From a virus, in IMG/VR virus record IMGVR_UViG_3300046010_003648, positions 1 to 22,395 of that record: DNA of 22,395 bases. One strand, given 5' to 3'. Made by a program: the position numbers and the translations under genes. Position 1 is the first letter of the stretch; each line of letters starts with the position of its first letter. The notes beneath the pieces were generated by a model, which saw nothing but the letters and a program-made list of their open reading frames with translations, was not told the origin of the DNA and did no database searches. Positions 1 through 22,270 of this stretch are shown piece after piece.

Positions 1-3000
1 GCTCCAACGTCGGCAGCGCCACCAGCAGGACCGATAGCGGCGGACATACCAGCAGCGGCAGCGGTGGAAAGCGAATCAAGCGCGTCCATAAACTCCTCTG
101 GATTGTCAGGACTGAAAAGCTCGTCCATGTTTTTTCCGCCCTTGAGAAGATCATTCGCCGCTTTGCTGGCAAGATCATCGGCAGGGAATACGCGAAGGCC
201 AAGTAACCCGCGCCCGAGTTTGTCAATGAGTCGGCCAAAAACGAACAGACCATTGATGGGCCCTAGAGTGAGAGCAAGTGTCCACTGCTCGCGGCTCAAT
301 TCACGATCACGATCCTCATCGTCACCAAGTAGTGAGGCGATCACAACGGCCATCACCTGCGAAACGCCAGCTTGGACAACGTGAGCGACGAGAGCCCTCT
401 GAACGTCCAGCATCTTGTTTTTAGACTTGCCCGTTGCCAGCCTGCGAATTGCCATGAGCTCGATGGCTAGCGCCTTGCGTTGGTCAGAGACGAACATCGA
501 CATTGAGCGCATGAATGGATTTCCGTTACGCTCGTAAAGGGCGCGAGCGTAAACGTCGGCAGGCTGTGCCGAGGTGGCAATCATCTTTTCCACGCGAGCA
601 GTTGCCGCATTGTCCGCCATCTCTGGCGTCATGCCTTGGCTGATGTATCCGCGCCGGTAGAAGTCGAAGGAGATGGCAGCGCCGAGAGCCGTCCAGCCAC
701 CGTCAACCGCAGACATCGGCATCATACCCGCCTGCATGGCAAGAATGGCCTGTGAGCCCGTCATGCTAGAGCCTTGCGTTGCAATCCTGGATTCAGCAGA
801 GAATCCTTGTTCGATACGGCGGCGGATGATGTCAGACTTCCACATCGCGGAGACTTCGCGGGCAAATGTCTGCGGCTCCACAAATGCGCGAGCCATGCCC
901 ATCATGTAATTGTGAGCAGGAACGTCAGCGAGGAGCGGATTGAGCAGCGCGGGAGTCTGCTTGATGATTGGCGAGAGACGGAATGCCAGCCCCTTGTAGG
1001 CGCGATACTGCATAAACCAGCGCCAAACGCGGCTCATGTTCACAAGTTCGCTCGCGTTGTTTGTGCCGTTCTTCTCAATCGTGCTGATGTCTTGCTTCAA
1101 CCGTTGAAGATAGCCCTCGCTTTTCTTTTGGCGGATGGCTACAGCCGTATCTTTATCGAGCAGCACGGCCTTCATATCCCGAATGAGTTCAGCGTGTGCC
1201 ACCCAATGAGAGACGTTCTCCCAATGCGCCAAGAACACGGCCAGCGCGTCACTTTCCACCAGCGATGCCGTCGTGTTGACGCGGGACTTTGTGAAGCCAG
1301 CAGCTAGCCCGCTGTTCATGTCGGAGCTTTCCATGTCCATCACCTCTCCGCCTGCGTTCATGTTCCGGCGATGAATCGGAGAGTAGTTCTTAATGCGTGG
1401 CAGCGGCGCGTTGAACAGCCTGCGGTAGATGGGATCAATCATGCCAGCCGCATCTTGATAGCTGCCAGCAATCCAGCGCCCGAGCGCCTTAGCTTCGGGT
1501 GACAGGAACTTCTCAAGCTGCTCGAAGCTGTCAGCGTCCCAGCCGTCACGCTCCATTTGTTTCCGGCTCGCGTCTTGCATGGACCATAGCCACCACTGGA
1601 TTCCTTGCGCTTCGGACATCTTGCGAGCGGTAGGCTCAGCGCGGCTTGTCACCTTCTCAATCGTCACCGTGCGCTTGCGTGCATTGGACGCGAACTCCTC
1701 AAGCGCGGCCTCGACTTCGACTTGCTCCAGCCCTGCCGTCTTGGCATCCATCGTGCCGTCTGCCAGCTTTGTCAGCGTGTCGATGTCCAACGTCACTTTC
1801 TCCTTTGTGACGCGAGAAATCACAACGCCGGAGTCTTTGATCTTCTGCAATTCAGCGATGCCGCGAGCGTGTGCGAACTTGCTGTCAGAGTTGAAAATGA
1901 CCGTCAGCGCGTCCTTTTTCTGAGACTCCACCAACCGCTTGATGTCAGTCGAAAGGTTCGCCGCGTTGATGATCTTACCCGCGAAGTAATCGAGCGTTTT
2001 GGAATCTTCACCGAAGATCAATTCGAGCCGTTGCAGAGTCGTCCACAGAGCCTCCGACAGAACGCCACGCATCCCGAGTAATGCGCGCTTCATCACGCCT
2101 TTATTCAGGTTCGTGATGTTGTCGGCAATGGCAGCATTCAGTTCGTCGCCAGCGAGAATGGACGCTTGCCCATCTTGGCGCATATCATCAAGGAAGGCTT
2201 TCCGCTCTTCATCCAGTAGCTTCTTTCCTTGCTTGCCTTGCTCAATCGTCTCGTTTAGCCACAAGAAAGCGGACTCACGGGCGGTAGAATCTTTCGTGTC
2301 CCAGACTTCAAAGAGTCGGGCGATGCCGAGCTTTGTCAGCGCGTCTTGAACATCTTCAGCGGACTCTGATTCTTCCACCTGCTTTTCAAGCGCGGCCTGT
2401 TCTTTGGCTTGGCTTGCAATGTCCAGTTCGATGAACTCGGCAGCGTAATCGACCTGCTCCGTTGCCGTGGAAAGAATCTTACCGGAAATGCGCCCGCCCT
2501 TGTCCTTCTGCGACTTGTAGCGTTCAAGCAGTTTATCAACCGCCTCGCCATACTGATCCTTCAGATGCTTTTCGAGCAGCCTCTGCCCGCGTTCGAGTTG
2601 CTTCTGCAGCACCTTCAACCGCGCCGATTCGGAAGCCTTGCGCGCCAGCGTGACAAATCCGCCGATCTTCCCACGAATCTCCGCAGGGAACATGGCAACG
2701 ATTGCCTCTAGGGTGATCAAATCACGGACGAGCGATTCACGCGGGGACCAGTCCTCATTCTGCATCTTATCGGTTTCGTCGCGCCATGCTTGGGCTTCTT
2801 TCGTGGCCTGCTCCAGTGCCTTTTTCTCGACATCACGCACGGCCTTTTCTGCCTTCGCGTAGCCTTCCTTGGCGCTTCGATGAGATTTGACGATTGAATC
2901 CAACTCTGCCCACAAGTCAGGAGCAAGCGCCCCCGTCTTTAGTAGCCCATCATCATACATCGCCTGTGCCATCTCGTTTGGCATAATGCCGCCCGTAGAT

Positions 3001-6000
3001 GGGAGCCGAGTTGTTTTAATCGCTGCGGCAGCATCTCCTGAATCAATCTGCTTTTGGATGTCCGCAGGAATTTTACCAATGTCGAAAACCGTTTTGCCGC
3101 CATCTTTGAAAGTGACAACGACGGTCTTGAACGATGGCCCGCCGCTATACCAATTCGGAGGAATCCAGCCAGCATCATTGTAATCGCCAGCGTTGCCCTT
3201 TCCGTCAGTCTTGAGCTTGCCCATGCGTTCAGCCGTGGACTCAGACATAAGCCGCCCGTGATTATTGAGCATGTGCTTCACGAATGGATGATCTTCCAAC
3301 GTGCCCACACCTTCACTCCACGCCATGAGCGTAGCAGGTGGCAGTTTCATCATTCCCTCGTCAATGAGTTCACGCTGGCGCGCACGCTTGCGGTAGGCTT
3401 GCTCCCTGTCCAAACTCTTGACCGTGCGCTTCTCCGAGATTGGTCGAATCTTGTCACCCTTCGGCGTCCACCGCTCAGTGCTCCACTTATCGCGGAGTTT
3501 GGCGAACTGGTGAATCACCTTCGATTTCACTTCGAGCGCGCCCGCTGGATTCTCAGCAAACTGGCGCTCTACTTGGTCGCTGAGTTCGTTTAGGTTGCGG
3601 ATGGGAGAGATGCTAAAATTAATATTTGGCGTCTCAGGATTGAAGCGTTGGCTAAGTGGAATGACGTTGCCTGCGTTGTCGTAGGTTACTGGATCGGCGG
3701 ATTTGATTTTTGCAGGGTCAATGATTGCAATTTCTTTCACAATGCCATCACCATTCATGTCCATCATTAACGCATCAATGGGCTTACCTTTAATATCTGC
3801 CGTCCGCTTGCCGCTCACCATTCTACCAGCGTTTTCAATTTTTAAATAAACGCCGTATTCTTGAGGGCCATAACTTGCATAGCTGCCGCGTTGAGGCGTA
3901 AAGAAAGTCCCTGCCCTAAAATCCATCGTTCCAATTATTTGCCCACTTCTTGCGCGTTCAACAAAACGCCGCACTTCATCTTGCGTTTTGTCACCTGTCA
4001 TTGTTTCGCGAGCAAAAGGCTGAAATGAATCTATTCCTTTTGGCCCATAATGCCACACTGGGCCAGTGTTAAATCCAGCCGCCTTCGCCACAGCATCCAC
4101 CATCTTCTGCAACAACGTGCGATTCTTCTCAGGATTCTTGGCAAGCTCAAGATACTCGGCATCCTGCGCGGGAGTAACGCGAGAGATGGAGAACGTCCCA
4201 TGAGCCGCGGCATAGTTTGCCGAACTGGCCTTAATGCCCTTTTGTGCATTGACCGTCTGGCCGAGTGCTTCGAGATGGTCAGCGACCTTCTGCCGTTCTT
4301 CGTCCGAAACCTTCGCAGGATTCCACCAATACACAACGCCGTCGGTGGGATTAAAGCGGAAGTCCTTCGCATCGTCCTCCGTGGCGATCTCGCGGAAGTC
4401 TGCGTGCTGCGCTTTGCTCAAGTCAGGAACTTTAACCGCGATCACCTCGCCGTTTGCGACGGTGCCGAGGTAGCCTTTGGAGACGCTGAACGCCATGTTG
4501 CCAGCGTCTAAAATCTCCTGCGCTTCCTCGACTGCCGCTTGCTCCATCTGCTTCACCTCGTCAATGCCAAGCACCTTATTGACGAACGTATCCCACTCCT
4601 CGCCGATCTTGCCCTCATCGCGTGCTTTGACGATAGCTTTAACGGTGCCGAATACGCCTTTGAGATAGGCGGAGAAGGCGCGGAACATCGCGAGGATGCG
4701 ACGAAATGCGCTCGCTTCTGCCTGCGTCTTTGCGCCCATGACAGCCGCTTCGATGGCGCGGGAGATGGAGCCGGGACGCATACCAGTAGCGCGGCCCTGT
4801 CGGTCACGCCCGAGCACGTCACGAATGACCATCTCAGAGACGGTTTCTCGAAGCATTGTCTCATTGCCCTCGCCCTTTGCGAGCGTGCGCAGATTCTCGA
4901 TGAATTGACCTTCCTCCGAATTGGCAGGCTTGGAAGCCTCGAAAGCGGGCAGCAAGGCACGCATGGCCGTCCGCGTCTCCTGCTCTGAGAATGTGCCGTT
5001 TGCCATCCCGAGACGCCATGACGATTCGATGTTTTCATGCAGGAACGTGATCACCTGCGGCTGGCCTTCCGCCTGTGATTTGTAGAGGTTCAGGACGCGA
5101 GCAACGCCTTTAGCCGTGTCAGCCACGCGCATAGGAAACACGTCGTTGCCACCGTTCACATGGGCGAAGATGTCCTGTGTGCCCGAATTGATGCCAGCTA
5201 CTTCCGCTTCTTTGCGGATTGTTTCGAGTGCAGCGGCATCAAATGCTCGGGTTGCGACCACGTTACCCGCGGCATCACGACGAACACCGAACACGCCACC
5301 GCGCCCGACTTTGACCGTCTCGCCAGTAATCACCGTTTCAGCCTGCCGCCCTGCCGCGTAGTAATCGTCAATGACGTTCACCAGAGCGTCCGCCTCCTGC
5401 TGGCTTCCGACTTGGCGCAGATCCACCGCGATACGACGAGCGGCCTCCGCAGAGTCCACTGTGACAACATTCCCGTCACCGGTGCGGACCTGCCAGCCCT
5501 GGGGCGAGCGGGTCACGTCCACGGTGTATTCTGGGGAGGATGTGTCTTGGAGGGCAATTGCTTGATCTTGAACCTTTCGGAGCGCGTCTAACTTGCTCGC
5601 ATATTTCTCCGCTACTTCCGCCGCCAACTCTGGCGAACGCCTACCCATTGCATCCTTGAGAGCCGCTTCGGCCTCGTTCGTTTTGCCAGCGGTGGCAAGC
5701 TCCAGAATCTTCACGCGGTCAGATTCGATGATGCCCGCACGCATGAGCAAGTCATTGTCGGCAAGCATATCGTTCACCTGCTGCTTATTCGCTGCGGTGT
5801 TCACTCCAGCGCCAATGAGCATGAGCGGCACCATGCCGATTGCCACGTCTGCGCGAGTGCCGAGAAACTCTTCTTTCTCCTTCTGCCAATCCACCTGCGG
5901 GACTGACTGACTCAGTTCTGAAACCATCTCTTGAATGACAGAAGTGCTCAAATCTTGAGCAGCCTCAACGGTGTTTTCAAAAGCAAACAAAGCGCCACCT

Positions 6001-7466
6001 TGAGCCGCTGCCTTTTTGGCAAGCTCCTTGGTGACTCCTCCCATGATCATCTTGCGCACGTTTGGCGCGAACTTGCCCAGACCAAACAGCGTGGCTTTGT
6101 CCATTGCCGCCTGCGCAGCGCCAGACAGCACCGAGATAGTCGCGGCATCCTCTGGATTCATGTCTGGGAACTCAGTCAGCAATTCCTCACGTTCAAGGTT
6201 TGCGTAACCACCACCCGCCATAAGCAAGCCTTGCGGCCCCATCGCCAGCGGCAGCATAAGAGACAAGCTAGAAGCTGTCCCGCTCGCCATCGTGCCGAGG
6301 ATAGAATCGTCCATCGGGTCAGTGCTCAGCGCGATCTTTTTCAGTTCACGCTCTGCCTTGAATAGACTTTTGGCACGCTCCTTTGCCTCCATCACAAAAG
6401 CCTTTTCATCCTCACTCAAAACACGAGCAGCGGGGAGTTTAGGCGCTTCTGGATCATAAGGAACGCGGGACGCAATCTCTGCCCGCGCTATCGTATCCAT
6501 AACTTTGAGCGCATCTTCAACGGAAGTGATAGGCTCAGCGATGGGTAATGGCTGGGACGGGTCAATCTTGCGTGAGACTTCCTCACCGCGACGACCAGCG
6601 CCAAACATGCTGTCAATGATGTTCACGGCACTGCCTGCAAATGTCCCCGACACATCGCGCTTGCCGCCCTCTTCCGCGACCTTCTTAGCACCCATGAGAA
6701 GCGAGCGAATGAGGATATTACGGTCACGCCCTTGTGACTGCGCCAGCGTCCAAGTAAGTTGTTCGACAGTTTGGCGGTCTTCATCCGTAGCCTTGCCCTG
6801 CTGAATTCTGCGCATTGCCGGAGCCGCAGCGTCAATCAGTCGCCGATGTGGCGCGAGTGCTACGGATGTCTGAAACAGCGAATCAGCAAACGTCACTTTT
6901 TCCTCTTCGGTGGCGTCTGGATATGACTCCTGAAAGCGTGCCAACTCGCTCGCCATTGTTGCGCCAGATAGCGCCGACTCCATGCCGGTAAGTGCCGATT
7001 GCTTGCGCTTTTCGGCGCGCACCATATCAGCATCCAATTCAGACTTTGCCTTGCTGAAAAAAGTCGAATCATCGAGCGGTTGATTGCCCCATTTTTGGGA
7101 GGCATCCGCTTTATAGAAGTCGTAGCGCTTTCTCACGTCTGCCTCATCGGCGTTGTAACGGTCAGCCAGCCAGAGAATAGAAGCCTCGCGGGCGCGCAAC
7201 TGATCACCAAAGCCGGGCTTGGCTCGATTTGCCTCAACAAATGCGGCATTTTCAGTATCCAAGACGAGAGGGTTTTGGAACACCTCCTGCACACGCTTCT
7301 TGCGGTCTTGCTTCAACTTCTCCTGCGTAGGCCACAGCGGAGCGCCTAGCGTCTCCTGCTGCGCCCTGTAGTCAGCAAGGAGTGATGCGGCACGCGGACG
7401 CATATCCTCTGGCATGGTGTCGATACCTTGGAAAAGCTGAAAAGCGTCGTTTTCGTCAATGACCAT
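1..7466 (-). CDS. Giant internal virion / large polyvalent protein (gp16 position), C-terminus outside window
   Basis: Reading the minus strand from the ATG at 7466 gives one uninterrupted frame of 2488 codons that leaves the window at position 1, so the C-terminus is missing. It starts 1 nt after the stop of the gp15-like gene, the place of T7 gp16, an injected ejectosome protein. Visible parts: a helical N-terminus; hydrophobic stretches near residues 390-417 and 540-560; a degenerate zincin-like segment (H810-E811-N-I-E814, then a helix with E874/E878); a small module at about 990-1090; an ADP-ribosyltransferase-like module at about 1100-1290; a charged helical region at about 1560-1700 containing an FPAEIRGKIGGF motif; and a C-terminal region with NYSPIHRR at 2027-2034, as seen in other large polyvalent proteins. 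No SD precedes the ATG. Likely role: ejected with the DNA and modifies host targets. The frame is certain; the family call is by pattern memory. Confidence 0.88.
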   Translation of the reverse strand, partial: MVIDENDAFQLFQGIDTMPEDMRPRAASLLADYRAQQETLGAPLWPTQEKLKQDRKKRVQEVFQNPLVLDTENAAFVEANRAKPGFGDQLRAREASILWLADRYNADEADVRKRYDFYKADASQKWGNQPLDDSTFFSKAKSELDADMVRAEKRKQSALTGMESALSGATMASELARFQESYPDATEEEKVTFADSLFQTSVALAPHRRLIDAAAPAMRRIQQGKATDEDRQTVEQLTWTLAQSQGRDRNILIRSLLMGAKKVAEEGGKRDVSGTFAGSAVNIIDSMFGAGRRGEEVSRKIDPSQPLPIAEPITSVEDALKVMDTIARAEIASRVPYDPEAPKLPAARVLSEDEKAFVMEAKERAKSLFKAERELKKIALSTDPMDDSILGTMASGTASSLSLMLPLAMGPQGLLMAGGGYANLEREELLTEFPDMNPEDAATISVLSGAAQAAMDKATLFGLGKFAPNVRKMIMGGVTKELAKKAAAQGGALFAFENTVEAAQDLSTSVIQEMVSELSQSVPQVDWQKEKEEFLGTRADVAIGMVPLMLIGAGVNTAANKQQVNDMLADNDLLMRAGIIESDRVKILELATAGKTNEAEAALKDAMGRRSPELAAEVAEKYASKLDALRKVQDQAIALQDTSSPEYTVDVTRSPQGWQVRTGDGNVVTVDSAEAARRIAVDLRQVGSQQEADALVNVIDDYYAAGRQAETVITGETVKVGRGGVFGVRRDAAGNVVATRAFDAAALETIRKEAEVAGINSGTQDIFAHVNGGNDVFPMRVADTAKGVARVLNLYKSQAEGQPQVITFLHENIESSWRLGMANGTFSEQETRTAMRALLPAFEASKPANSEEGQFIENLRTLAKGEGNETMLRETVSEMVIRDVLGRDRQGRATGMRPGSISRAIEAAVMGAKTQAEASAFRRILAMFRAFSAYLKGVFGTVKAIVKARDEGKIGEEWDTFVNKVLGIDEVKQMEQAAVEEAQEILDAGNMAFSVSKGYLGTVANGEVIAVKVPDLSKAQHADFREIATEDDAKDFRFNPTDGVVYWWNPAKVSDEERQKVADHLEALGQTVNAQKGIKASSANYAAAHGTFSISRVTPAQDAEYLELAKNPEKNRTLLQKMVDAVAKAAGFNTGPVWHYGPKGIDSFQPFARETMTGDKTQDEVRRFVERARSGQIIGTMDFRAGTFFTPQRGSYASYGPQEYGVYLKIENAGRMVSGKRTADIKGKPIDALMMDMNGDGIVKEIAIIDPAKIKSADPVTYDNAGNVIPLSQRFNPETPNINFSISPIRNLNELSDQVERQFAENPAGALEVKSKVIHQFAKLRDKWSTERWTPKGDKIRPISEKRTVKSLDREQAYRKRARQRELIDEGMMKLPPATLMAWSEGVGTLEDHPFVKHMLNNHGRLMSESTAERMGKLKTDGKGNAGDYNDAGWIPPNWYSGGPSFKTVVVTFKDGGKTVFDIGKIPADIQKQIDSGDAAAAIKTTRLPSTGGIMPNEMAQAMYDDGLLKTGALAPDLWAELDSIVKSHRSAKEGYAKAEKAVRDVEKKALEQATKEAQAWRDETDKMQNEDWSPRESLVRDLITLEAIVAMFPAEIRGKIGGFVTLARKASESARLKVLQKQLERGQRLLEKHLKDQYGEAVDKLLERYKSQKDKGGRISGKILSTATEQVDYAAEFIELDIASQAKEQAALEKQVEESESAEDVQDALTKLGIARLFEVWDTKDSTARESAFLWLNETIEQGKQGKKLLDEERKAFLDDMRQDGQASILAGDELNAAIADNITNLNKGVMKRALLGMRGVLSEALWTTLQRLELIFGEDSKTLDYFAGKIINAANLSTDIKRLVESQKKDALTVIFNSDSKFAHARGIAELQKIKDSGVVISRVTKEKVTLDIDTLTKLADGTMDAKTAGLEQVEVEAALEEFASNARKRTVTIEKVTSRAEPTARKMSEAQGIQWWLWSMQDASRKQMERDGWDADSFEQLEKFLSPEAKALGRWIAGSYQDAAGMIDPIYRRLFNAPLPRIKNYSPIHRRNMNAGGEVMDMESSDMNSGLAAGFTKSRVNTTASLVESDALAVFLAHWENVSHWVAHAELIRDMKAVLLDKDTAVAIRQKKSEGYLQRLKQDISTIEKNGTNNASELVNMSRVWRWFMQYRAYKGLAFRLSPIIKQTPALLNPLLADVPAHNYMMGMARAFVEPQTFAREVSAMWKSDIIRRRIEQGFSAESRIATQGSSMTGSQAILAMQAGMMPMSAVDGGWTALGAAISFDFYRRGYISQGMTPEMADNAATARVEKMIATSAQPADVYARALYERNGNPFMRSMSMFVSDQRKALAIELMAIRRLATGKSKNKMLDVQRALVAHVVQAGVSQVMAVVIASLLGDDEDRDRELSREQWTLALTLGPINGLFVFGRLIDKLGRGLLGLRVFPADDLASKAANDLLKGGKNMDELFSPDNPEEFMDALDSLSTAAAAGMSAAIGPAGGAADVG
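3597..4169 (-). other. ADP-ribosyltransferase-like module inside the giant protein
   Basis: Residues about 1100-1290 of the giant protein. It begins with a helix DAEYLELAKNPEKN followed by MVDAVAKAAGF and the motif GPVWHYG (H1139). After a spacer come FFTPQRGSYASYG (T1190, Y1196/Y1199), EYGVYLKIENAG, and EIAIIDPAKIKSADP (E1245). It ends with a Y-D-N-A-G-N-V-I-P-L-S linker and FSIS. This matches the H-Y-[E/Q] arrangement of ART modules described in phage polyvalent proteins, including the usual IKSA ending. The exact catalytic third residue is uncertain. Function would be NAD-dependent modification of a host target; the substrate cannot be inferred. Confidence 0.6.
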
Positions 7467-7467
7467 A

Positions 7468-9138
7468 TTACTTGCCGTATTTTTTCAGAGTTTCGTTAAA
7501 TGATTCCTCACTCATGCCGTCGTTTTGAAGCGATGGGATAAGAGGGTTAGGCTTCACTGGTTTTACTTTGACCCCCTTCATAGTGGACAGATCAAACATG
7601 CGGGCCGTGATTTCTGACTGATCCTTGAGTTTCCCGGCTTTAACTTCACTTTCAAGCGTGCGCCTGATCTCGCGTTGAATCGCTGCCGCCCTTTCGATTG
7701 CCACCTTGTCAGGCTCAGTCAACGGCACGGGCTTGCCCTCATTCTCCTTCACATCTGAAGGACTTTCGCCAAACCATCCCGGCTTCATCACAAATCCAAT
7801 TTTCTTTGGGTCTTGCATCACAGGCTTGCCGTCTTGCATCACGGGACGCTCCAACGGGAAAAGACCACCTTGGCGAATAGAGTCTTCCAACTGCTGCATA
7901 GCCGGGCCGATGTCAGTCTCAGACGTTGGAGCAGCGGCATCACGGTCACGGCGCTTTGTGAGTTCGGAGCGGAGATTATCCAGATAAGGACCATCGAAGC
8001 GCGCCTCAAAAGATGCCTCCATTTGAGTTGCCGCCGTTACAGCCTCGCGAGGGTCAACGTATTTACTCGGGTCAAACGACATGGCCGCAGTGAGTGCGCT
8101 TTCAAACTCGGCAGGATCGTTGACGCTGCCAGTGGCGAGGGCCGCGATGCTGGCGCGGTCAAAGTCGGTCAGACTTGCGTCTTGTTTTAATTCGTCAGCC
8201 GATGGGATGTCATGCAAAGCAAGCCGCTCCTTATATTTTGTTACAGCGTCACGGCGCTTGAATGACTTCGCTTGATAAGACTCACGCTCAATGTTCACGC
8301 GGTCCTGTCCTGTGATCTTACCTTCGCGTTCCTTCACAACAGCCAACTCTGCCGCCATGTCTGGATTGTCGTTAGCTATGACCATTAGATCATCCGCTTC
8401 CTTTTTTCTCGCCGCTCCATTTTTGAGCCGAGCAATCGCCAGCGCCTTTTCGTCGGCAGGCATCGGGCTTTGCTCAATAACAGCCATCGCTGATTCAACG
8501 TCGTTGTTTGCCAGCGCCGTGTTTGCCTGCGTATTGGCGCGCTCGATTTTGACGGCTTTGGCCTTTTCCATGGCGTCAGCTTGCACACCATCACGCCACT
8601 CTGGAAGTCCAACGTTAGACGCAGCGGCAAGCCTCATGGTTTGCCCAACGGCATCAACGTCGCCGTCGCGGATGGCTTGAGCGTTTCGATTCAAAATGCT
8701 TTCTTTTGCCCTCGCCTGCGACTGCTCAAAAGCCTGCCCACGAATGTTCAGCGTGTGCCGATCCGCAAACTGCCCGAACGACTGCGTGAGATTGAGCCGC
8801 GTCTTGTCCGAGACTTTGAGCCCATCGAGGCGCTTTTGAAGGTCAGTGCTGCGTTTCTGCCACGCTGGCAACCATTCGCTTTGTTCCTGAACTTGCTGCT
8901 GGAAAACGCTCTGCTCGTCCACCGCTTTCCTCATGTCGCCTTCAAACTCGATCATGAGCCGGGCATCGTCGGCCTCCTGCTCTTTTTGCGCCATGTCTGC
9001 CAACTGCGCGCCGATACCCTGGAGCGCCCGCCCCATGCCGGTATCGCCAGCCGTGAGTTGCGCCGTTCGTGCTACCATCGTGCCGCTTTGCTGGAGCGGG
9101 ATAGCTCCGCGATTCATGAGGGGGACTTGTGTCGGCAT
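7468..9138 (-). CDS. Internal virion protein, gp15-like (ejectosome)
   Basis: A 556-residue protein, very helical and charged, with long Gln/Glu/Ala/Lys-rich stretches (residues about 40-330) likely to form coiled coils or helical bundles. The N-terminus (MPTQVPLMNRGAIPLQQSG) is extended and polar, and the C-terminal 130 residues are Pro/Lys-rich. No enzymatic motif was seen. Position decides the call: between a gp14-like membrane-active protein and the giant gp16-position protein, as in T7-like ejectosome operons, where gp15 forms part of the conduit across the envelope. The ATG follows the upstream stop by 2 nt (TAA-TT-ATG) without an SD sequence, and the stop is 1 nt before the next ATG, implying translational coupling. 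Family membership is inferred from position and helical character, not from a diagnostic motif. Confidence 0.75.
   Translation of the reverse strand: MPTQVPLMNRGAIPLQQSGTMVARTAQLTAGDTGMGRALQGIGAQLADMAQKEQEADDARLMIEFEGDMRKAVDEQSVFQQQVQEQSEWLPAWQKRSTDLQKRLDGLKVSDKTRLNLTQSFGQFADRHTLNIRGQAFEQSQARAKESILNRNAQAIRDGDVDAVGQTMRLAAASNVGLPEWRDGVQADAMEKAKAVKIERANTQANTALANNDVESAMAVIEQSPMPADEKALAIARLKNGAARKKEADDLMVIANDNPDMAAELAVVKEREGKITGQDRVNIERESYQAKSFKRRDAVTKYKERLALHDIPSADELKQDASLTDFDRASIAALATGSVNDPAEFESALTAAMSFDPSKYVDPREAVTAATQMEASFEARFDGPYLDNLRSELTKRRDRDAAAPTSETDIGPAMQQLEDSIRQGGLFPLERPVMQDGKPVMQDPKKIGFVMKPGWFGESPSDVKENEGKPVPLTEPDKVAIERAAAIQREIRRTLESEVKAGKLKDQSEITARMFDLSTMKGVKVKPVKPNPLIPSLQNDGMSEESFNETLKKYGK
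7810..7842. repeat. Short direct repeat (12 bp, period 21)
   Basis: The 12-mer GTCTTGCATCAC (plus strand) occurs at 7810-7821 and again at 7831-7842. It encodes a duplicated PVMQD peptide near the C-terminus of the gp15-like protein, consistent with a small in-frame duplication. Confidence 0.6.
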
Positions 9139-9140
9139 AA

Positions 9141-9719
9141 TTAGAGGCCAGATGGACGGGCAGAAACGCCACGAGGATTAGTGTAACCGGCTGGCATCGC
9201 TACGCCAGAAATAGAAGCGGTTTTAGGGCGGTTTTGATACATGCCATAAGCACTTCCGGCAGCGGAGGCAAGACCAGAGACGAGCGATGCGCCAGCCTGC
9301 CCGCGCAGTTGCGAGGCTTGGCTGCGGCCTTCAGCGAGGATACTCTGCCCCTGCGTCCCTAGCTGCCAGTTGCCGAGCTGCGTTTCCGTCGCCATGTCAG
9401 ACGAGCGGCGAGACTGCGCTTCGACTGTATCGGCCATGATTGCCAGCGGCGTTCCTGTGCTTGTTACAAAGCCGGTGCCGACAAGATCGGCCAACTGAGT
9501 TGCACGTTCACGACGAGACTGAATGGAGAGACGGCGCTGATTTTCGGAAAGCTCGAGGTTCTTCCTCTTCTGCTCTGCCGCGATGGCGTCAGCCTGCGCT
9601 TTGGCGTTGTATTCGCTTTGTTTCGCGGCTTGCTGTCCCTGCTGATAGGACACAACAGATCCAGCCGCAGAAGCTGCCACAGCGACGACTCCGTAAATAA
9701 TGCCAGCGTATTCAGCCAT
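9141..9719 (-). CDS. Internal virion protein B, gp14-like (membrane-active)
   Basis: A 192-residue protein with an N-terminal hydrophobic Ala/Val/Gly segment at residues about 5-25 (AGIIYGVVAVAASAAGSVVS). An Ala/Gln/Glu/Lys-rich helical middle follows (residues about 27-130), then a second small-residue hydrophobic segment near 145-163. This architecture is common among podoviral internal virion proteins B, which insert in the outer membrane during DNA ejection. The start overlaps the end of the GNAT-like gene by 8 nt, so the leader is coding sequence of that gene and has no SD. It lies directly upstream of the gp15-like gene, supporting the T7 gp13-gp14-gp15-gp16 order. It could alternatively be another small virion protein, but the twin hydrophobic segments and the context favour gp14. 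Confidence 0.78.
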   Translation of the reverse strand: MAEYAGIIYGVVAVAASAAGSVVSYQQGQQAAKQSEYNAKAQADAIAAEQKRKNLELSENQRRLSIQSRRERATQLADLVGTGFVTSTGTPLAIMADTVEAQSRRSSDMATETQLGNWQLGTQGQSILAEGRSQASQLRGQAGASLVSGLASAAGSAYGMYQNRPKTASISGVAMPAGYTNPRGVSARPSGL

Positions 9720-10152: not shown

Positions 10153-13100
10153 TCAACTACCGCTTACCTCGCCTTTTAAGACGTAGCCGAGGAGGCCGAA
10201 GGGAACCGGGTCGTCGTGCTGGATAGTGAATTCGGTTGTCGGCCCCCAATCGGAGCCAATGTGTAGATCAATTCTTCCAGTGAATGGCTTATCGGTGCCA
10301 GATGGATATTCGATGTCGAATCCGCCCGTGGAGTAGCCAGTAGCTCCGAAGGCGTATCCAAAGTCACCTGCGTTTGCTGCATACTTCCCGCCGAGTGAGT
10401 TATCGAGAATCAACTGGACGCGGTTTGCCCGCCAGTGCCTGCCCTGCCCGGTGCCGTCTTGAAGTTGCGCGTCCAAAGGAAATCCCTGGACGGTGGAAAG
10501 CACGGGTAGTCCGTAAAACCATGACCCAGCGACTCCGGTCATATTAGTTAGCGCTGGAGCTTCGTAATGGCCCACAAACGCAACAACCACAATGCCCACT
10601 CCAGAATCACTGTCCGGCCACTGCCAGCCGAGTGACGCGGTGATGAAACTGCCAGCCTCAATGAAGCCGTCATTAAGCCACGCGAGGATGTTAGAGCCGC
10701 TGGTGTAAAAGCCTGGAGCGGCAGGCGATCCAGACGCGGAGTAAGTCAGAGATTGAGCAGCATCGACAAAGCAGAGAGGTTCGTCGTTGGAGTCCTTCCG
10801 CTCGTCCATGATCCACTTTAGAGTCGGAGAATGGAGCCGCTCAATGAAGCGATAAGATCCCCGCAGTGTTGTGACATAAACCTCGTCGATGTCGTTTCCG
10901 TAGATCACTGCCACACTTTCAAACGAGTGCCCGTCAGCGTTGCCAGTCGTGTGCATTGCCCAAGCCGTCACGCTCTGTTCACGGTCATAGGTGAAGCTGT
11001 AGAGCTTCCCGGTGTCTGTCACCGCCCACACGATGGGCGTCGGTGAAGACTGATAAGCTGTCTGCACGATTTTGCCATCAAGTAGGCCGACGAGCTGAGT
11101 CATGTCGGGAGCGGTGTAACCATCCACTTGAAATGAATAAGTGAACTCGCGCATTGAGCGGCCAGAGCGTGAAACCCAAAGAAGCGACTCGGCCACGACT
11201 TCAGGCTGGATGCCATAAGAGCCGTGCTTCGTGCGCATTCGTGCCCGCGCCTTCGTTGGCGTGATCACCGTTTCAGCGTCTCCGCCGTCAATGGTCCACT
11301 CCTGCCCAGACGTGCCGACGATCATTGCGCGATTGTGCGATGCCAGCCAGAGAATATCATTCGCCTCAGTCGCGCCAAGTGTGACATCCAGCCCCGAGTC
11401 ATCCAGCGAGCCTGTGAGGAAGTTATAGAAGTCATCGAGTTTGCTGCCCCAGATGCGCGAGCCTTTGCCTGTAGTGCCGCCATACCAGATTCGCCCATCA
11501 TGGAAGCACACTGCACGCGGATAGCCTTCAGTGGGAGAGAAGGCAGGCTTGCGGTAATTCGTGGTTGAAACGCCAATCGCTGCCGCTGGCGGTAGCTGGT
11601 CGTTTACGGTGATGAGCTTGCCGCCAACGACAGTCGCGGAGGTGTAGCTTTCAATCAGGAACGGCATTTTGATCACTGAGGACACAGCCTCGATCTTCAT
11701 CACGCCGCCAGCGCCGCCGCTCGTTCGCGCTGCGCTGATGCGATACCACGCCCCCACGTCTGGAGCCGTGCCATCGTAGCTGATATTTCCGTCGTTCGCT
11801 GCTGTCTGATTCCAGTCCTTGATCTTGCTCCACGTCACACCGTCGAGCGACTCTTCGAGCGCCAGACTGCCAAGCATTGCCGAGGCGCTATTCCATGTCG
11901 TCGTGACGAGGAAACTGCCTTGGATGAAAAGCGGCTCAGTTGGCCCGATTGCCGTTCCTGCGGACAGGATAATCGAGTCATACCGGCCCGTTGTCCCAAG
12001 CTCCAAAAGCCAATTCGTCCCCACGTCGGAGGATGTGAAAAGGTCCTCAGTGGCGACGAGGTTAAAAGCCAGTCCAGAAAGGTCATTACCTGCGCTGCTG
12101 ATCTTCCAGAAGGAAGTCCACGCTTGCCCGTCTGAAGGACGATTGCCGCCACTTTTACCGAAGCGTCCATTGATAGGAGCAGAGGCAACGTGTGACTGGC
12201 GGCATTCATAAATAACGGAGTTATAGCGAACCTTATTCGTGGCGCTGTAAGTCGTGCCCGCTGCCCACGCTGCCACCGTCACGGATGATGTGCCGAGATT
12301 CCAATATGATTCCCAGGCAGAGCCAGCCCCAGGCTCGTCCACCGCGTCAGCCGTCGCTCCGCCGTGTGCCGTATGGCACGTAAAGATTTGCCCCTCGTAA
12401 GGCGCTGTCAGCCCTAAGACACGATCACCAACAGCGTAACCCGTGGCTATCTGAGTCCAGACCGTTGCAGAGTTTGCGCCCACTCCCGGCTGCGTCAGCG
12501 CTGCGGATGTGTGGTCAGCGATACAGGTATAGATTCGCCCCACCGTTGCGCCCGTGCCTTGGATGATGTCGCCCGCTTTGTAGGCCGTGGCAGTCGCCCA
12601 CGAGTCAGCCCACTTGTTGATGCCGGTATATTGAACCTGAACAGCGATGCGCGTCTCGTTCAGGTCGAGGTAAGGAGCGAACTCGAAAGGAACCTTTTCG
12701 AGTTGCCAGTGAGTATCCGAAACGCGGGTAAGTCTGCGCGGAAAGTGGTCTGGATGCGTGAGAAACATCACGTCATTTAGCTGCCGATATTGGAGGTCGA
12801 AAACCTCGGCGGCAGAATATGGCGAATCAATCACGACATCCGTCGTTGTGCTAGCGGTTGGCCCACCAATCTGAGTGAACTTCCCGGTCACGCTCGGATC
12901 TGCCCACGGAGCGCCAGCCGGATTGAAGGTGTATGACGTGTGACAAACCCAGTATTCAAAGTTTGGCGACGACCCATACTGAACGATTTCCCCAAGCTCG
13001 TAATCGCCAGACCCAATAAAGACGGGCGCTTCAAAAGCCTGCCCAATGACACGCATGTAATCGTCGCCCCATTCAAGAGCGAAGTTCACCTCCGTTGAAC

Positions 13101-13308
13101 GCCGGAACGGAATCAGCCTGGCCTTTTCGGTGTCATCTCTTTGGCGCTCAACGTGAAGAAAGCCGGGTCGCTTGAAAACTCCACCGAACGGAGTCGGGAG
13201 CATGTTTTTCAACTGAACGCAGCCCGTGCGAATCTTTTCAAGATCAAAGCGGCCCGCGAGCTTCTGACTCATCAGGCCTCCGTTGAAATTAGCGTGAAGT
13301 GTGTTCAT
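10153..13308 (-). CDS. Tail tubular protein B / nozzle-like tail protein with four CBM-like modules
   Basis: A 1051-residue protein. The first 50 residues (FNGGLMSQKLAGRFDLEKIR, then MLPTPFGGVFKRPGF) match the conserved N-terminus of podoviral nozzle (gp12-like) proteins. Four carbohydrate-binding (CBM5/12-like) modules follow near residues 102-148, 237-288, 290-339 and 346-403, each with a Y-x-x-G-D-x-V type strand, a Y/W-x-C strand and a final W or F. A beta-sandwich insert spans about 410-545 (LALEESLDGVTWSKIKDW). The propeller-like core resumes at about 590-830 (YPRAVCFHDGRIWYGGT, NDILWLASHNRAMIVGTSGQ). The start overlaps the adaptor stop as ATGA. Role: lower part of the short tail, with surface-binding decoration. 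It is longer than T7 gp12 (about 790 residues), the extra length being the inserted modules. Confidence 0.88.
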   Translation of the reverse strand: MNTLHANFNGGLMSQKLAGRFDLEKIRTGCVQLKNMLPTPFGGVFKRPGFLHVERQRDDTEKARLIPFRRSTEVNFALEWGDDYMRVIGQAFEAPVFIGSGDYELGEIVQYGSSPNFEYWVCHTSYTFNPAGAPWADPSVTGKFTQIGGPTASTTTDVVIDSPYSAAEVFDLQYRQLNDVMFLTHPDHFPRRLTRVSDTHWQLEKVPFEFAPYLDLNETRIAVQVQYTGINKWADSWATATAYKAGDIIQGTGATVGRIYTCIADHTSAALTQPGVGANSATVWTQIATGYAVGDRVLGLTAPYEGQIFTCHTAHGGATADAVDEPGAGSAWESYWNLGTSSVTVAAWAAGTTYSATNKVRYNSVIYECRQSHVASAPINGRFGKSGGNRPSDGQAWTSFWKISSAGNDLSGLAFNLVATEDLFTSSDVGTNWLLELGTTGRYDSIILSAGTAIGPTEPLFIQGSFLVTTTWNSASAMLGSLALEESLDGVTWSKIKDWNQTAANDGNISYDGTAPDVGAWYRISAARTSGGAGGVMKIEAVSSVIKMPFLIESYTSATVVGGKLITVNDQLPPAAAIGVSTTNYRKPAFSPTEGYPRAVCFHDGRIWYGGTTGKGSRIWGSKLDDFYNFLTGSLDDSGLDVTLGATEANDILWLASHNRAMIVGTSGQEWTIDGGDAETVITPTKARARMRTKHGSYGIQPEVVAESLLWVSRSGRSMREFTYSFQVDGYTAPDMTQLVGLLDGKIVQTAYQSSPTPIVWAVTDTGKLYSFTYDREQSVTAWAMHTTGNADGHSFESVAVIYGNDIDEVYVTTLRGSYRFIERLHSPTLKWIMDERKDSNDEPLCFVDAAQSLTYSASGSPAAPGFYTSGSNILAWLNDGFIEAGSFITASLGWQWPDSDSGVGIVVVAFVGHYEAPALTNMTGVAGSWFYGLPVLSTVQGFPLDAQLQDGTGQGRHWRANRVQLILDNSLGGKYAANAGDFGYAFGATGYSTGGFDIEYPSGTDKPFTGRIDLHIGSDWGPTTEFTIQHDDPVPFGLLGYVLKGEVSGS
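12100..13005 (-). other. Tandem CBM5/12-like modules within the nozzle protein
   Basis: Codons about 102-403 of the nozzle protein. Four segments of about 45-58 residues share a pattern: aromatic near the start, x-x-G-(D/E)-x-(V/I), a spacer, (Y/F/W)-x-C, a His three residues later in most copies, and a closing W/F. Examples of the cores are YKAGDIIQG...IYTC, YAVGDRVLG...IFTC and YSATNKVRY...IYEC. The Cys in the third strand is kept in all four. The two middle modules abut directly; the others are separated by core nozzle sequence or a short linker. Confidence 0.6.
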
Positions 13309-14126
13309 AGAAAATTGCGACGAGCGCGGACAACACGGGAATCGTAGTCAGGATCAATGACGCGGCCCTTGCCCTGCCTCGCGTCTTGCCCTTTAGCCTT
13401 TGGCCCGATTTGCTGCTCGAATCTGCCGCGCAGTTCTGCTGCTTTGCCACTCGGGCCGGTCAAGTCTTGCGCGATGTAGGAGGCCAGCAGAAGCGCGAAT
13501 GCGTTAATGAAGTGCTGGCTCCATTCCGTCTGCGTCTCATTCTTATAGACGTATCGCAATGTGACGATGTCCTCATTCGTGAGCAGCTTGCCAAGCTCCA
13601 CGGCGTAGGGAACGGAGTCGTTTTCATTCGCCTCGAATCCGTTGACGTTGACCACGCGCAGGCAGTCGGCGGGAAGCGTGTGCTGGTAGTCCCAGCCGAA
13701 CAAAGGGGCGAGAATCCATTCCCCTGTGCCGCTCGTGTGCGATCCGCTGAAAACAGAATCTTGCAGGTCGAAAGTGTGTTGGGTGATCCTTGTAATATAC
13801 CAAGTACCATTTGCAGCCGGAACGCCTTGAACATTCCGCATGTGGATTCTGTCACCCGTCTGCATTGAATGCGTGTTGTGCGTGACACGGATCAATCCCG
13901 AGCCGTTATCGGCTAACGCCACGCCAGATAGCGCCGTCCATGCAATCTCATTGCGCCACCGCTTCGTTGCGAAGTTCCACGGATGCGAAGCTAATGCCTC
14001 ATCCCTCGCAGGATCAAACCACTTCCGGCATGTCACAGCCTGCGGAGTGTTGTCAGTTAATAGCGCCGTCAGCGACTTGCCGCCGATTAGCGAGATGGCA
14101 AGATTTGCAATTTCAGTTTCAGTCAT
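13305..14126 (-). CDS. Tail tubular protein A / head-to-tail adaptor (gp11- or Gp4-like)
   Basis: A 273-residue protein. The N-terminus (IANLAISLIGGKSLTALL, then TCRKWFDPARDEALASHPWNFA) is the hallmark of podoviral adaptor proteins, which dock under the portal ring. After W63 a beta-rich domain is inserted (about residues 66-141, GLIRVTHNTHSMQTGDRIHM, then ANGTWYITRI and HTFDLQDS) that looks like an FCCH-type domain. The adaptor core resumes at LFGWDYQHTLPADCLRVVNV and continues with the helical NAFALLLASYIAQDLTG. The start lies 17 nt after a hairpin terminator and has no SD; the stop overlaps the nozzle ATG as ATGA. T7 gp11 is about 196 residues, so the extra length is essentially the insert. 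Confidence 0.87.
   Translation of the reverse strand: MTETEIANLAISLIGGKSLTALLTDNTPQAVTCRKWFDPARDEALASHPWNFATKRWRNEIAWTALSGVALADNGSGLIRVTHNTHSMQTGDRIHMRNVQGVPAANGTWYITRITQHTFDLQDSVFSGSHTSGTGEWILAPLFGWDYQHTLPADCLRVVNVNGFEANENDSVPYAVELGKLLTNEDIVTLRYVYKNETQTEWSQHFINAFALLLASYIAQDLTGPSGKAAELRGRFEQQIGPKAKGQDARQGKGRVIDPDYDSRVVRARRNFL
13704..13931 (-). other. FCCH-like beta domain inserted in the adaptor
   Basis: Codons about 66-141 of the adaptor. The motif order V-T-H-x-x-H-S-M-Q-T-G-D-R-I, then N-V-Q-G-V-P-A-A-N-G-T-W-Y-I-T, then H-T-F-D-L matches small beta-barrel modules annotated as ubiquitin-activating E1 FCCH domains in phage tail proteins. The name reflects fold similarity only; there is no link to ubiquitin here. 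It interrupts the adaptor between its N-terminal helical hairpin and the rest of the core. Confidence 0.5.
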
Positions 14127-14757: not shown

Positions 14758-15648
14758 TTATGGGCTTTCGTCAGCGTAGATGCGGACGACACGGGTGTTC
14801 TCAGTGCGGACAGCGCCAGCGCGATAGACACCGCGAAGCTGTTTCGCATGACGGCGGTCAGGCAGGAGGTCGATGTGAACGGTTCTGCCGATTTCCGCAA
14901 ACTTGACGCCAGACTTGTGCCAGGCAAAGCAGGTGCGGACATCCGTGCTGGTGTTCAGGCTCAGACGCTCAGTGCGAATGAACTTGAAGCCAGCGAACAT
15001 ATCCACAGAGCCAGAGGCAAGAGCCTTCACGTTCACGAAATCGCCAGAGGTGATTTGAGTCGTGAGGAGCATGTCCTGAAGCTGCTGCGCCGAGGTGGCA
15101 AAGTAGCGCTCGCCGTCGTCAACTTCGGCCTCGTCCAAAATCTTCTTGGCCTGGAGAATCTTCGCCACGGTCAGGCCGCTGTTAGCGGTAGAACCGGAAG
15201 CGACGTAATCCACAGCAATGGAGAAGTTCGAGTCGAAGGCGTCAGTCGTGGTGCCGTCCTCACCGATGTAGCGAGTGGCGTCGAAACTGGAGATGATGAC
15301 CGAATCCTTCGTGCGATTGCTCGCAGCTTGGAGGCTCATCACTTCGTCCGAGTCGGGCAGAGCGATTTGACCAAGGTTGATTTCATCGTCCTCATCCCAG
15401 ACTTTCACGAACTCGAAGCGACGGCGGTAGATCCAGTATTTTGTGCCGGTGGAGTCACCGTCTGGAGTGTCGCCCTTGCGAGTGGTGATCTCGGTCATGG
15501 TGCCGAGGTCAAGCATGTTGTATTGCTTCCGCTTGCCGGTGAAGGAATCGGATGTGACGGCTCCGCCAAGGCGGGAGTCCGTTTGCTGGGCTTTCATTTC
15601 CCAGTTCGTTGCGACTTCTTTTTCGAAGAATGTAGTGAGTTCAGCCAT
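14758..15648 (-). CDS. Major capsid protein
   Basis: A 296-residue HK97-fold type capsid protein of the podovirus group with MCPs near 300-350 residues. It has an N-terminal helical arm (MAELTTFFEKEVATNWEMKA), then YWIYRRRFEFVKVWDEDDEI with a strand preceding the spine helix. The P-domain helix is LTVAKILQAKKILDEAEVDD, followed by ERYFATSAQQLQDML and the typical VDMFAGFKFIRTERL motif. The C-terminus (GRTVHIDLLPDRRHAKQLRG, VYRAGAVRTENTRVVRIYAD) is also characteristic. No signal or cleavage site is obvious; the flanking scaffold gene supplies assembly function. It is preceded by 268 nt of non-coding DNA including a strong terminator, and no SD lies upstream of the ATG. The neighbouring hairpins suggest that transcript level or stability is tuned for high expression. 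Confidence 0.9.
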   Translation of the reverse strand: MAELTTFFEKEVATNWEMKAQQTDSRLGGAVTSDSFTGKRKQYNMLDLGTMTEITTRKGDTPDGDSTGTKYWIYRRRFEFVKVWDEDDEINLGQIALPDSDEVMSLQAASNRTKDSVIISSFDATRYIGEDGTTTDAFDSNFSIAVDYVASGSTANSGLTVAKILQAKKILDEAEVDDGERYFATSAQQLQDMLLTTQITSGDFVNVKALASGSVDMFAGFKFIRTERLSLNTSTDVRTCFAWHKSGVKFAEIGRTVHIDLLPDRRHAKQLRGVYRAGAVRTENTRVVRIYADESP

Positions 15649-18259: not shown

Positions 18260-18520
18260 TCACAATCGTTTCGCCGCGAGTTGCCCCACGGTGTTCATGA
18301 ATCTAGCGAACTGATAGGTTGCCATTTCCAGAGCGCATTCCTCGTCAGCGTCGGCGGGCAGTGCCACGCGATCCTCAAAGATTCGCTTTTGAAACTTCAG
18401 CCGAAACTGGAAGGCGTAGATGCCCTCGCGAAAGGCGTTCAGGACGAGCTTTTTTACGCCGGGAAGGTGCGCCCGTTCGTCTAGGTTGATCACGCAAAGG
18501 TCTTTAGTTGGTGCGCTCAT
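18260..18520 (-). CDS. Unknown small protein after the portal gene
   Basis: An 86-residue protein, not recognised. It reads as mixed alpha/beta: MSAPTKDLCVINLDERAHLP, then GVKKLVLNAFREGIYAFQFR, RIFEDRVALPADADEECALE and a helical C-terminus (MATYQFARFMNTVGQLAAKR). It has no signal peptide or membrane helix. The start overlaps the portal stop as ATGA and has a strong SD (GGAGG, 7 nt upstream, inside the portal's last codons), so translation follows the portal. The position suggests a head-associated or assembly role; that is inference only. Confidence 0.7.
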   Translation of the reverse strand: MSAPTKDLCVINLDERAHLPGVKKLVLNAFREGIYAFQFRLKFQKRIFEDRVALPADADEECALEMATYQFARFMNTVGQLAAKRL

Positions 18521-20220
18521 GCCATTTCCTCCATCGCTTTCTTAGTTTCATCGACTCCGCCCATGTTCTTTACGGCCTTCGAGCCCTGCTCAAGCATCAT
18601 TGCGGCCTGTTGAGCTTGAGCGGCTTCGGCGCGGGCTTGGCGTGTGGCTGCCACCTCTTCGCCGTCAAGCATCCACGCGGCAGGCATCCCGTTGGAGCGT
18701 GCACGGTCACGGGTAATGCGGTCAAAGTCGTAATTGTCGAGAATGTCTGGGCGCGTCTGCGCGATCACAAGATCAGTTTCAAGCTGGCGTTCAAAGCCGT
18801 TCATGCCGAGTTGATCCAGCGCCAGCGCCAGCCGTGAGGAGTAGCTGATAGCAGGGTCAGGAATGACGCCCATGAACTCAGAGACGGGGATGATTGCCTC
18901 CTCTGGTGGCTGCTCCAATAGCCCTGCCTCCATCGCCATCGAGAACACGCGCAGAAGGATAGGGTTATGCTTCTCACTGCTCAGACGGGAGAACGCGGGC
19001 GAGATGAGCACGATCTTTTCAGCGGCTCGTTCTGCCACTTCACGCGCCGTCATCTGCCGGTCCAATGTGGCAAACATTCGGAAAAGCTCCGCGTGGAACT
19101 TCATATTCACGGCCTCCTGCCGCATCTTCACACGATCCACGGCGACGTTGTAATCTCCCGTTTGCTGGATGGGTTTCGGCCAGCGGTCAGACTGGATGCT
19201 GCCGGGCATGTAAGTAATGCCGCCAGCGGAAAGGATCAATTCACCCTCCATATCCTCAGGCGCGATCATTGCAGGACGCACGATCTTTTCAGCCGCGCAA
19301 TCGAGCATCATCTGGAGAAAGTTCACCTGCCGAGTGTCTGCCAGTGCCGCGAAGCCGGGGCCGTAGCCATAGGGCGATTTGCTCGAAAGCGCGGACCATT
19401 TCAGATAGCGACCAACAGCGAAAGGGAACGAGTCATAGCCAGACTCCTTGACGACCTGCTTGGATTTCACCTCAACATAGCAGGACGCAAACGCTTTGCC
19501 CCATGATGCGTTCCTTCCAGCGCCCTCTGGCCGTTCACTCTCTGGCCGAGGATAAACAGCATGGATAAACTTGTGCTTCTGCTGCGCCTTCTTGTCGTCC
19601 TTGAGACAGTCTTTGACATCCTTCGGAAGATTGTCATCACCAAACAAATCAGCGGCTTGCTTGGCCGTAATGTCCATCTCACGGTAGAGCGTGTTCACCT
19701 TGCCAAAGCCGTCCTCTTCGATGGCAAACGATCCGAGCGGCAGGGACTCAAATCGGAACTGTCCTTCATCCATCCCGCAGAACATCGCTGATGTGCCGAA
19801 GGTGCAATGCGTCAGCAGATCCTCATGGATCTCGGTGTAGAAATTCGAGTTCGCCAACAGTTCACGGATACGCTCAGAGCATCCCGCGAGCCACTGTTTC
19901 ACGCGGTCATTCCCGCGAAGCTCAAAGATAGGTTTGTAATTGAACCACGATTCATTCGCTGGCGAAGTCCAGGACATGAGCCCCCCCGCCATTGTCATAG
20001 CTGCATCTCCCGCAGTCGTGTCAAAAAGCAGAGCCTCCTTTGAGCTTGAAGGCGTTTCGTAAGTCGTGGAGATGCCAGCTTTACGAGGCATCATCAAATC
20101 AGCGATCTCCTGCCACTGCGGCTTCCAGACCGATAGTTCAGTGCTCATTCCCTGCCACTGGCGAAGGATGTCAGCGCCACGGGCGGACGATGCCGAGGGC
20201 GGTTTAGAGTTCTCCTCCAT
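18517..20220 (-). CDS. Portal protein (podoviral head-tail connector)
   Basis: A 567-residue protein of the T7-type head-tail connector family. The N-terminal motif (SVWKPQWQEIADLMMPRKAG) and MTMAGGLMSWTSPANESWF with WLAGCSERIRELLANSNFYT are typical, as are SPYGYGPGFAALADTRQVNF in the wing and DRQMTAREVAERAAEKIVLI in the helical crown region. Twelve copies would form the ring that docks the terminase and later the adaptor. An SD (GGAGG, about 11 nt upstream) precedes the ATG at 20220, which overlaps the upstream small gene by 17 nt. The Gln/Ala-rich C-terminus (ATRQARAEAAQAQQAAMMLE) is common in this family. The length is close to T7 gp8 (536 residues). Confidence 0.93.
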   Translation of the reverse strand: MEENSKPPSASSARGADILRQWQGMSTELSVWKPQWQEIADLMMPRKAGISTTYETPSSSKEALLFDTTAGDAAMTMAGGLMSWTSPANESWFNYKPIFELRGNDRVKQWLAGCSERIRELLANSNFYTEIHEDLLTHCTFGTSAMFCGMDEGQFRFESLPLGSFAIEEDGFGKVNTLYREMDITAKQAADLFGDDNLPKDVKDCLKDDKKAQQKHKFIHAVYPRPESERPEGAGRNASWGKAFASCYVEVKSKQVVKESGYDSFPFAVGRYLKWSALSSKSPYGYGPGFAALADTRQVNFLQMMLDCAAEKIVRPAMIAPEDMEGELILSAGGITYMPGSIQSDRWPKPIQQTGDYNVAVDRVKMRQEAVNMKFHAELFRMFATLDRQMTAREVAERAAEKIVLISPAFSRLSSEKHNPILLRVFSMAMEAGLLEQPPEEAIIPVSEFMGVIPDPAISYSSRLALALDQLGMNGFERQLETDLVIAQTRPDILDNYDFDRITRDRARSNGMPAAWMLDGEEVAATRQARAEAAQAQQAAMMLEQGSKAVKNMGGVDETKKAMEEMA

Positions 20221-21891: not shown

Positions 21892-22270
21892 CGATGATGA
21901 CTGATACCTCCAGTGAATGACGTTCTGGCTCGTAGAACGCGGCCCCCTTGCCAATCTCGCGCAGTGCTCCGGTAGCGGCTGAAAAGTCGCCAGTCTCGCG
22001 GGATTCCTTGGCAATCGCGGCCAGTTCGTCCAGCCACTTGTCCTTGGTCATGTCGAATTTCTTCTCGATGCGGTCTGATACTCTACCGCGCAACTCAACA
22101 ATCCTGAGAGCAATCTGAGACTCTTTCGCAAGTTTCGGCCCTGTCGTTTCAGCCGTTGATTCAGAGCACTTCCCGCCGCTCACATACTCAGCATAAGCCT
22201 GTGAAGCTGGCATGTTCAGCGCCACGGCCTGAGCGAAAGCCTCATGCTTTGGATTCTTCAGTGCTGGCAT
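21866..22270 (-). CDS. terS: Terminase small subunit (Terminase_2-like)
   Basis: A 134-residue DNA-recognition subunit of the packaging motor. The N-terminal helix-turn-helix is ALKNPKHEAFAQAVALNMPA, then SQAYAEYV and SESTAETTGPKLAKESQIAL, then RIVELRGRVSDRIEKKF. That order (N-P-K-H-E-x-F, A-Y, several Ser/Thr, K-L-x-x-x-x-x-I, R-I-x-E-L) is the small-subunit signature. The middle and C-terminal part is a helix (DKWLDELAAIAKESRETGDF) and an oligomerisation/terminase-binding tail. It is the first gene of the operon, about 30 nt after the predicted transcription start. The leader ends CACGACC-ATG with no SD. Confidence 0.88.
   Translation of the reverse strand: MPALKNPKHEAFAQAVALNMPASQAYAEYVSGGKCSESTAETTGPKLAKESQIALRIVELRGRVSDRIEKKFDMTKDKWLDELAAIAKESRETGDFSAATGALREIGKGAAFYEPERHSLEVSVIIGGNAEGHD

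Follow-up and report, generated by a model that had tools for sequence, protein, structure and literature searches.

A giant, probably polyvalent ejection-type protein with exchangeable modules at the gp16 position of a BPP-1-like podovirus

Giant proteins of described podoviruses and the locus in the window

Polyvalent proteins combine two or more disparate activities in one polypeptide that is packaged and injected with the phage DNA, zincin-like peptidases being their commonest domain (Iyer et al., 2017, PMC5512222). In BPP-1, the genes from bbp21 to bbp10 run in the order portal, protease, capsid, gp11, gp12, gp14-like, gp15 position and giant, the last three including Bbp12, Bbp11 (SLT domain, 5.8e-15) and the 2,052-aa Bbp10 (NP_958679; LPD22, 3.5e-25, and PBECR1, 1.9e-07), residues 700–1000 of which are among the published seeds of the CLCA_X metalloprotease family (PMC3650047). 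Bbp10 matches 63 phage records, among them that of the cultured freshwater Limnohabitans phage DC33, whose gp16 position is occupied by the 3,125-aa polyvalent giant XLZ15523, which has an ART-PolyVal domain (7.9e-21). A 2,986-aa giant of the same kind is carried by the Antarctic sea-ice phage OANV1 (PMC9239159), and the podovirus N4 ejects a giant multi-domain enzyme, the ~3,500-aa virion RNA polymerase gp50 (PMC12633501). GenBank places DC33 (PQ492659.1; our L046) in Inoviridae, although this tailed phage has genes of the portal and giant ejection types and microscopy shows an icosahedral head; the placement looks like a taxonomy error.

We analysed a 22,395-bp viral sequence (hereafter the window) that is the entire IMG/VR record IMGVR_UViG_3300046010_003648, so that there is no reading past position 1, beyond which the end of the giant described here lies. 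Its minus strand encodes, in order, the small and large terminase subunits, portal, a protease-like protein, capsid, gp11-like and gp12-like proteins, a 136-aa ORF, a gp14-like protein, the gp15-position protein and the giant. This is the BPP-1-type order, also T7-like, and the giant, the last gene of the podovirus module, is encoded among the virion genes of a portal- and terminase-bearing phage. The main features are:

20560..22014, minus strand: terminase large subunit
18517..20220, minus strand: portal (head-tail adaptor)
14758..15648, minus strand: major capsid protein
13305..14126, minus strand: gp11-like tail protein
10153..13308, minus strand: gp12-like tail protein with a CBM_5_12 insert
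9141..9719, minus strand: gp14-like internal virion protein, 192 aa (phrog_418, 4.6e-12; PF24072, 1.3e-05)
7468..9138, minus strand: gp15-position protein, 556 aa, exchanged, in its C-terminal half, together with the giant's N module
3..7466, minus strand: giant, probably polyvalent protein at the gp16 position, 2,488 of ~2,504 aa (open frame and full-length homologues)

The CBM_5_12 (chitin-binding type) modules of the gp12-like protein occupy two stretches around residues 347–377 (E 5e-11).

Translation from the ATG at 7466 proceeds to position 3 without a stop, yielding the uninterrupted frame of at least 2,488 codons that the preliminary description had reported; at 55.8% G+C, the chance probability of such an open run is ~1e-42. 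The frame is not an artefact, since full-length homologues of 2,191–2,854 aa occur in seven independent IMG/VR contigs, and because each of these, the divergent L027 excepted, runs on for 16 residues past the last window codon and then ends, the complete giant can be put at ~2,504 aa. The window ATG finds support in relative L004, whose giant opens with an identical MVIDENDAFQLF. Gene order bears out the proposed gp16 position, and the visible part, at 1.89 times the 1,318 aa of T7 gp16, agrees with the earlier figure of at least 1.9-fold. The window phage recurs: contigs L011–L016, recovered from several metagenomes, match it at 98–100% identity in the protein tested.

Relationship to Bbp10 and coupled exchange of the N module

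Whole-protein tblastn of the giant against 50,697 phage records gave no match at 1e-5, and searches against Pfam, PHROG, NCBIfam and PDB sequences gave chance-level matches only. No homology to T7 gp16 was detected (Pfam, PHROG); we treat T7 gp16 only as a protein that the giant probably works like. The giant divides as follows:

5541..7466, minus strand: N module, residues 1–642, belonging to one of three interchangeable types and exchanged together with the gp15-position gene
5166..5540, minus strand: residues 643–767, with no relative beyond the close family
4545..5165, minus strand: zincin-like domain, residues 768–974 (profile match to L033, L066 and L083)
4194..4490, minus strand: cassette 1, residues 993–1091, with no family match
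3600..4193, minus strand: cassette 2, ART-like, residues 1092–1289, with His1139, Tyr1196/1199 and tail IKSADPVTYDNAGNVIPLS
3..3599, minus strand: conserved, mostly helical C-terminal backbone, residues 1290–2488, homologous to the Bbp10 C-terminal region
2994..3146, minus strand: optional insert, residues 1441–1491, present in the window, L002, L008 and L027 and absent from the other relatives

Profile searches established that the C-terminal backbone is homologous to that of Bbp10. The C-terminal profile recovered the giants of L033, L038, L041, L042 and L045 and was joined by Bbp10 after one iteration (6e-14), and a profile of the last 500 residues reached Bbp10 directly at 1e-07 and the DC33 giant at 2e-17 after iteration. 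Direct hhalign comparisons with Bbp10 were significant for neither the C-terminal nor the zincin-like alignment, because the alignments are shallow. An AlphaFold model of residues 1289–2488 was almost wholly helical at low confidence (pLDDT 55, too weak for a fold test) and had no PDB match at a Foldseek E of 0.001; in the BFVD viral library, the model of the C-terminal half found strong matches, including several 'large polyvalent protein' entries. Through its predicted structure, we reached the UniProt entry A0A6J5RUY7 (ART-PolyVal-like domain-containing protein, uncultured Caudovirales phage). It had already been deposited, as a database entry only, and is a direct member of the family, with 77% identity across ~1,070 columns within the C-terminal half.

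The window giant resembles Bbp10 in its position behind the gp12-, gp14- and gp15-position genes, its homologous C-terminal region, its mid-protein zincin motif and its polyvalent-type domains. Bbp10 differs in having LPD22, PBECR1 and an intact HESGH, whereas in the window giant the N module is a different one, the zincin motif reads HENIE, and there are an ART-like cassette and junction tags of the form FS[IV]S. The BPP-1 transglycosylase sits in Bbp11, but neither the giant (3–7466) nor the gp15-position protein (7468–9138) of the window yielded a transglycosylase or lysozyme domain. The DC33 giant is larger, with an LPD22 N-terminus and no tblastn match to the window at 1e-5. N4 gp50 is likewise giant and multi-domain but is an RNA polymerase with no relationship found. 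T7 gp16 shares gene position, the rank of largest ejection protein of its set and, by inference, contact between its N-terminal part and the C-terminal region of gp15, but it has a transglycosylase domain and lacks cassettes. Because gene order, the Bbp10 C-terminal homology and the DC33 counterpart agree, we consider the window giant to be, probably, a polyvalent ejection protein that fills the place of T7 gp16 in a BPP-1-like podovirus. It belongs to an already known kind, given the proteins of BPP-1, DC33 and OANV1, and the arrangement is not special to this phage, as had been proposed, since dozens of other records, besides those of Bbp10 and DC33, have it too. Beyond these known giants, the window family reveals which of its parts are swapped jointly, and it bears tags at module boundaries, making both questions testable.

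The three N-module types share 20–30% identity with one another. L003 and L004 are 98% identical in C2 and 23% in the N module; L027 and L005, at 30% identity in C2, reach 82% in the N module and 89% in the gp15-position protein. L004 marks the edges of the exchanged block. Its gp15-position protein is 82–97% identical to those of L002 and L003 over residues 1 to ~150 and 70–93% identical to that of the window from ~240 onward; its giant is 78–97% identical to the window over the N module and 80–98% identical to L003 from about residue 640. Taken as a single block, gp15-position residues from ~260 and giant residues 1 to ~620 are ~90% identical to the window, between flanks with ~90–98% identity to other phages. 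Across seven genomes, gp15 and N-module distances were correlated (r 0.71, exact permutation p 0.0012), and N-module and C2 distances were not (r −0.21). By these comparisons, the N module and the C-terminal half of the gp15-position protein are exchanged as one block.

In T7, residues of the gp16 N-terminal part bind and stabilise (cement) the flexible gp15 C-terminal region in the tunnel (PMC8954989). Co-exchange and distance correlation agree with that tie, and their simplest reading suggests, by analogy, that the gp15 C-terminal region and the N module touch in the window phage too. Gene adjacency offers a partial alternative account, as linkage contributes to co-exchange where the exchanged parts adjoin. 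The coupled exchange would provide comparative evidence for a gp15-C to gp16-N contact outside T7.

Zincin-like domain and exchangeable cassettes

The preliminary description had seen in the giant modules of polyvalent type. Two motifs are relevant to the first of these, the zincin-like domain:

5025..5039, minus strand: HENIE (HExxE) motif, residues 810–814
4830..4850, minus strand: RETVSEM, residues 873–879, with a candidate third-ligand glutamate

The profile of this domain reaches L033 at 2e-07, as well as L066 and L083, which have HENVH, HEEAH and HERAH, respectively, at the position of HENIE; the downstream E-x3-E segment is kept in all. HExxE occurs in all eight close relatives that have the domain. 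Because HExxE stands in place of the HExxH that, with a downstream Glu, defines zincin metallopeptidases, the domain is classed as zincin-like only; it may be inactive in the window giant, and activity is not to be assumed given the missing second zinc histidine.

Downstream, residues 975–1283 form a slot with differing inserts among relatives (168–790 aa). Searches with cassette 1 found no family and no relative. Cassette 2 has its nearest counterpart in the L039 cassette (48% identity), matches a set of ART cassettes along its full length (hhalign 9e-44, part of the match lying in conserved flanks) and retains His1139 and Y-x-x-Y-G, so it is likely, judging from sequence, to be an ADP-ribosyltransferase. 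Against PF18760 (Tox-ART-HYD2/ART-PolyVal; cut-off 31.2 bits), two cassettes of close relatives scored 43.2 and 51.1 and that of L039 14.7, and the window cassette gave no match. Inserts of L003 (8.9e-11) and L005 (twice) exceeded the curated Pfam ART-PolyVal cut-off, and that of L008 matched DUF2293 (4.3e-09). In L041 and L042 (8001–8477 in each), the usual left and right ART-cassette flanks enclose an interior unlike ART; these interiors suggest that the slot accepts unrelated payloads. A low-confidence AlphaFold model of residues 630–1290 (pLDDT 49, too weak for a fold test) gave no PDB match at a Foldseek E of 0.001 and no VIA Z >=5.

By relationship, the window giant has two polyvalent-type modules, ART-like and zincin-like, as candidates for two disparate activities; ART-PolyVal is recognized by Pfam in relatives, and both modules fall below curated cut-offs in the window giant itself. 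Of the proposed fusion of ejectosome function with a package of host-directed enzymes, one enzyme is supported, the ART-like one (below the Pfam cut-off), and the zincin-like domain lacks its second zinc histidine.

A purely structural giant, a conduit or tape protein whose cassettes are inert remnants or spacers, would fit the loss of that histidine in HENIE, the further loss of the motif in L097 and L038, and a cassette 1 that matches nothing. We hold it unlikely, as the His and Tyr of ART are retained at their positions and close relatives swap in other enzyme-type domains (ART-PolyVal, DUF2293) on a backbone that stays 80–98% identical, so that the region behaves as an effector slot. A protein for lysis or host takeover, produced late in the infected cell and not part of the virion, as the annotation of Bbp10 homologues as lysis proteins in some records and the term lysis-related for OANV1 gp16 (PMC9239159) might imply, is most improbable for a giant that sits directly behind the gp14- and gp15-like genes, has an N module co-varying with the gp15-position protein and ends in a long helical backbone.

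For the polyvalent ejection protein that we favour, we infer packaging and ejection from the order of the genes and from the way the giant is coupled to its gp15-position neighbour, and propose its topology, enzyme activity and target in the same conditional sense. The giant would be packaged in the head and expelled together with the gp14- and gp15-like proteins. Its N module would bind the gp15-like tunnel protein in the C-terminal half of the latter, and the giant's own C-terminal half, long and helical, would make up an inner-membrane or cytoplasmic part. The slot between the two would deliver the zincin-like domain and the exchangeable effector cassettes into the cell with the DNA, where the ART-like cassette might ADP-ribosylate a host target. 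The gp16 place of podoviruses would then be a widespread delivery slot for exchangeable effectors.

Short tags at module junctions

A four-residue tag, FS[IV]S, expected 0.035 times, stands in the window giant in three copies, each of them at a cassette edge:

4479..4490, minus strand: FSVS, residues 993–996
4182..4193, minus strand: FSIS, residues 1092–1095
3606..3617, minus strand: FSIS, residues 1284–1287

In other giants, a different tag recurs at the boundaries of the protein concerned: L033 has FS[IL]G eight times, L043 has RFMPE four times and L062 has FALD ten times, and the tags seen outside the window include FSIG, FMPE, YSLP, FALD, [FL]EQAA and SRARG. Among 55 proteins with readable left and right ART-cassette edges, the best five-residue match between the two edges (BLOSUM62) averaged 17.6 within a protein and 9.75 between proteins, the highest of 20,000 permutations being 12.84. 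This result is from a corrected extraction; an earlier edge pattern, which found the true right-hand tag in 34 of 112 proteins, gave no signal. Outside those edges, 82 own-tag copies occurred in 90 proteins versus 26.0 by permutation (maximum 50). The test was devised after the pattern had been noticed, and its proteins were collected via the ART tail, the right tag starting inside the conserved ART ending.

Recombinational homogenisation is a possible source of the tags overall, the codons of tag copies being identical at 0.57 versus 0.40 expected; the window copies (0.40 versus 0.32) are near chance. A general prohead-protease site is unsupported, as other ORFs on these contigs show no enrichment of the tags (26 versus 19.4, p 0.11), and cleavage in cis by the zincin-like domain is disfavoured because the window, L038 and L097 retain tags despite an altered or lost zinc motif. 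We tentatively raise the possibility that giant polyvalent phage proteins carry a protein-specific 4–5-residue tag at module boundaries, kept through cassette exchange and read by a cognate phage factor; in this same speculative reading, the reader might be a processing protease in trans, or the tag a docking site for packing and unpacking beads for tail passage. A literature search of partial coverage found no paper describing the pattern. If functional, the tags would amount to a general rule for the cutting or packing of giant injected proteins and would make module boundaries readable from sequence. A still larger polyvalent protein, of 5,864 aa with its 3' end open, is encoded at 3035–20626 in L062, where several FALD copies are followed by DDTRYM.
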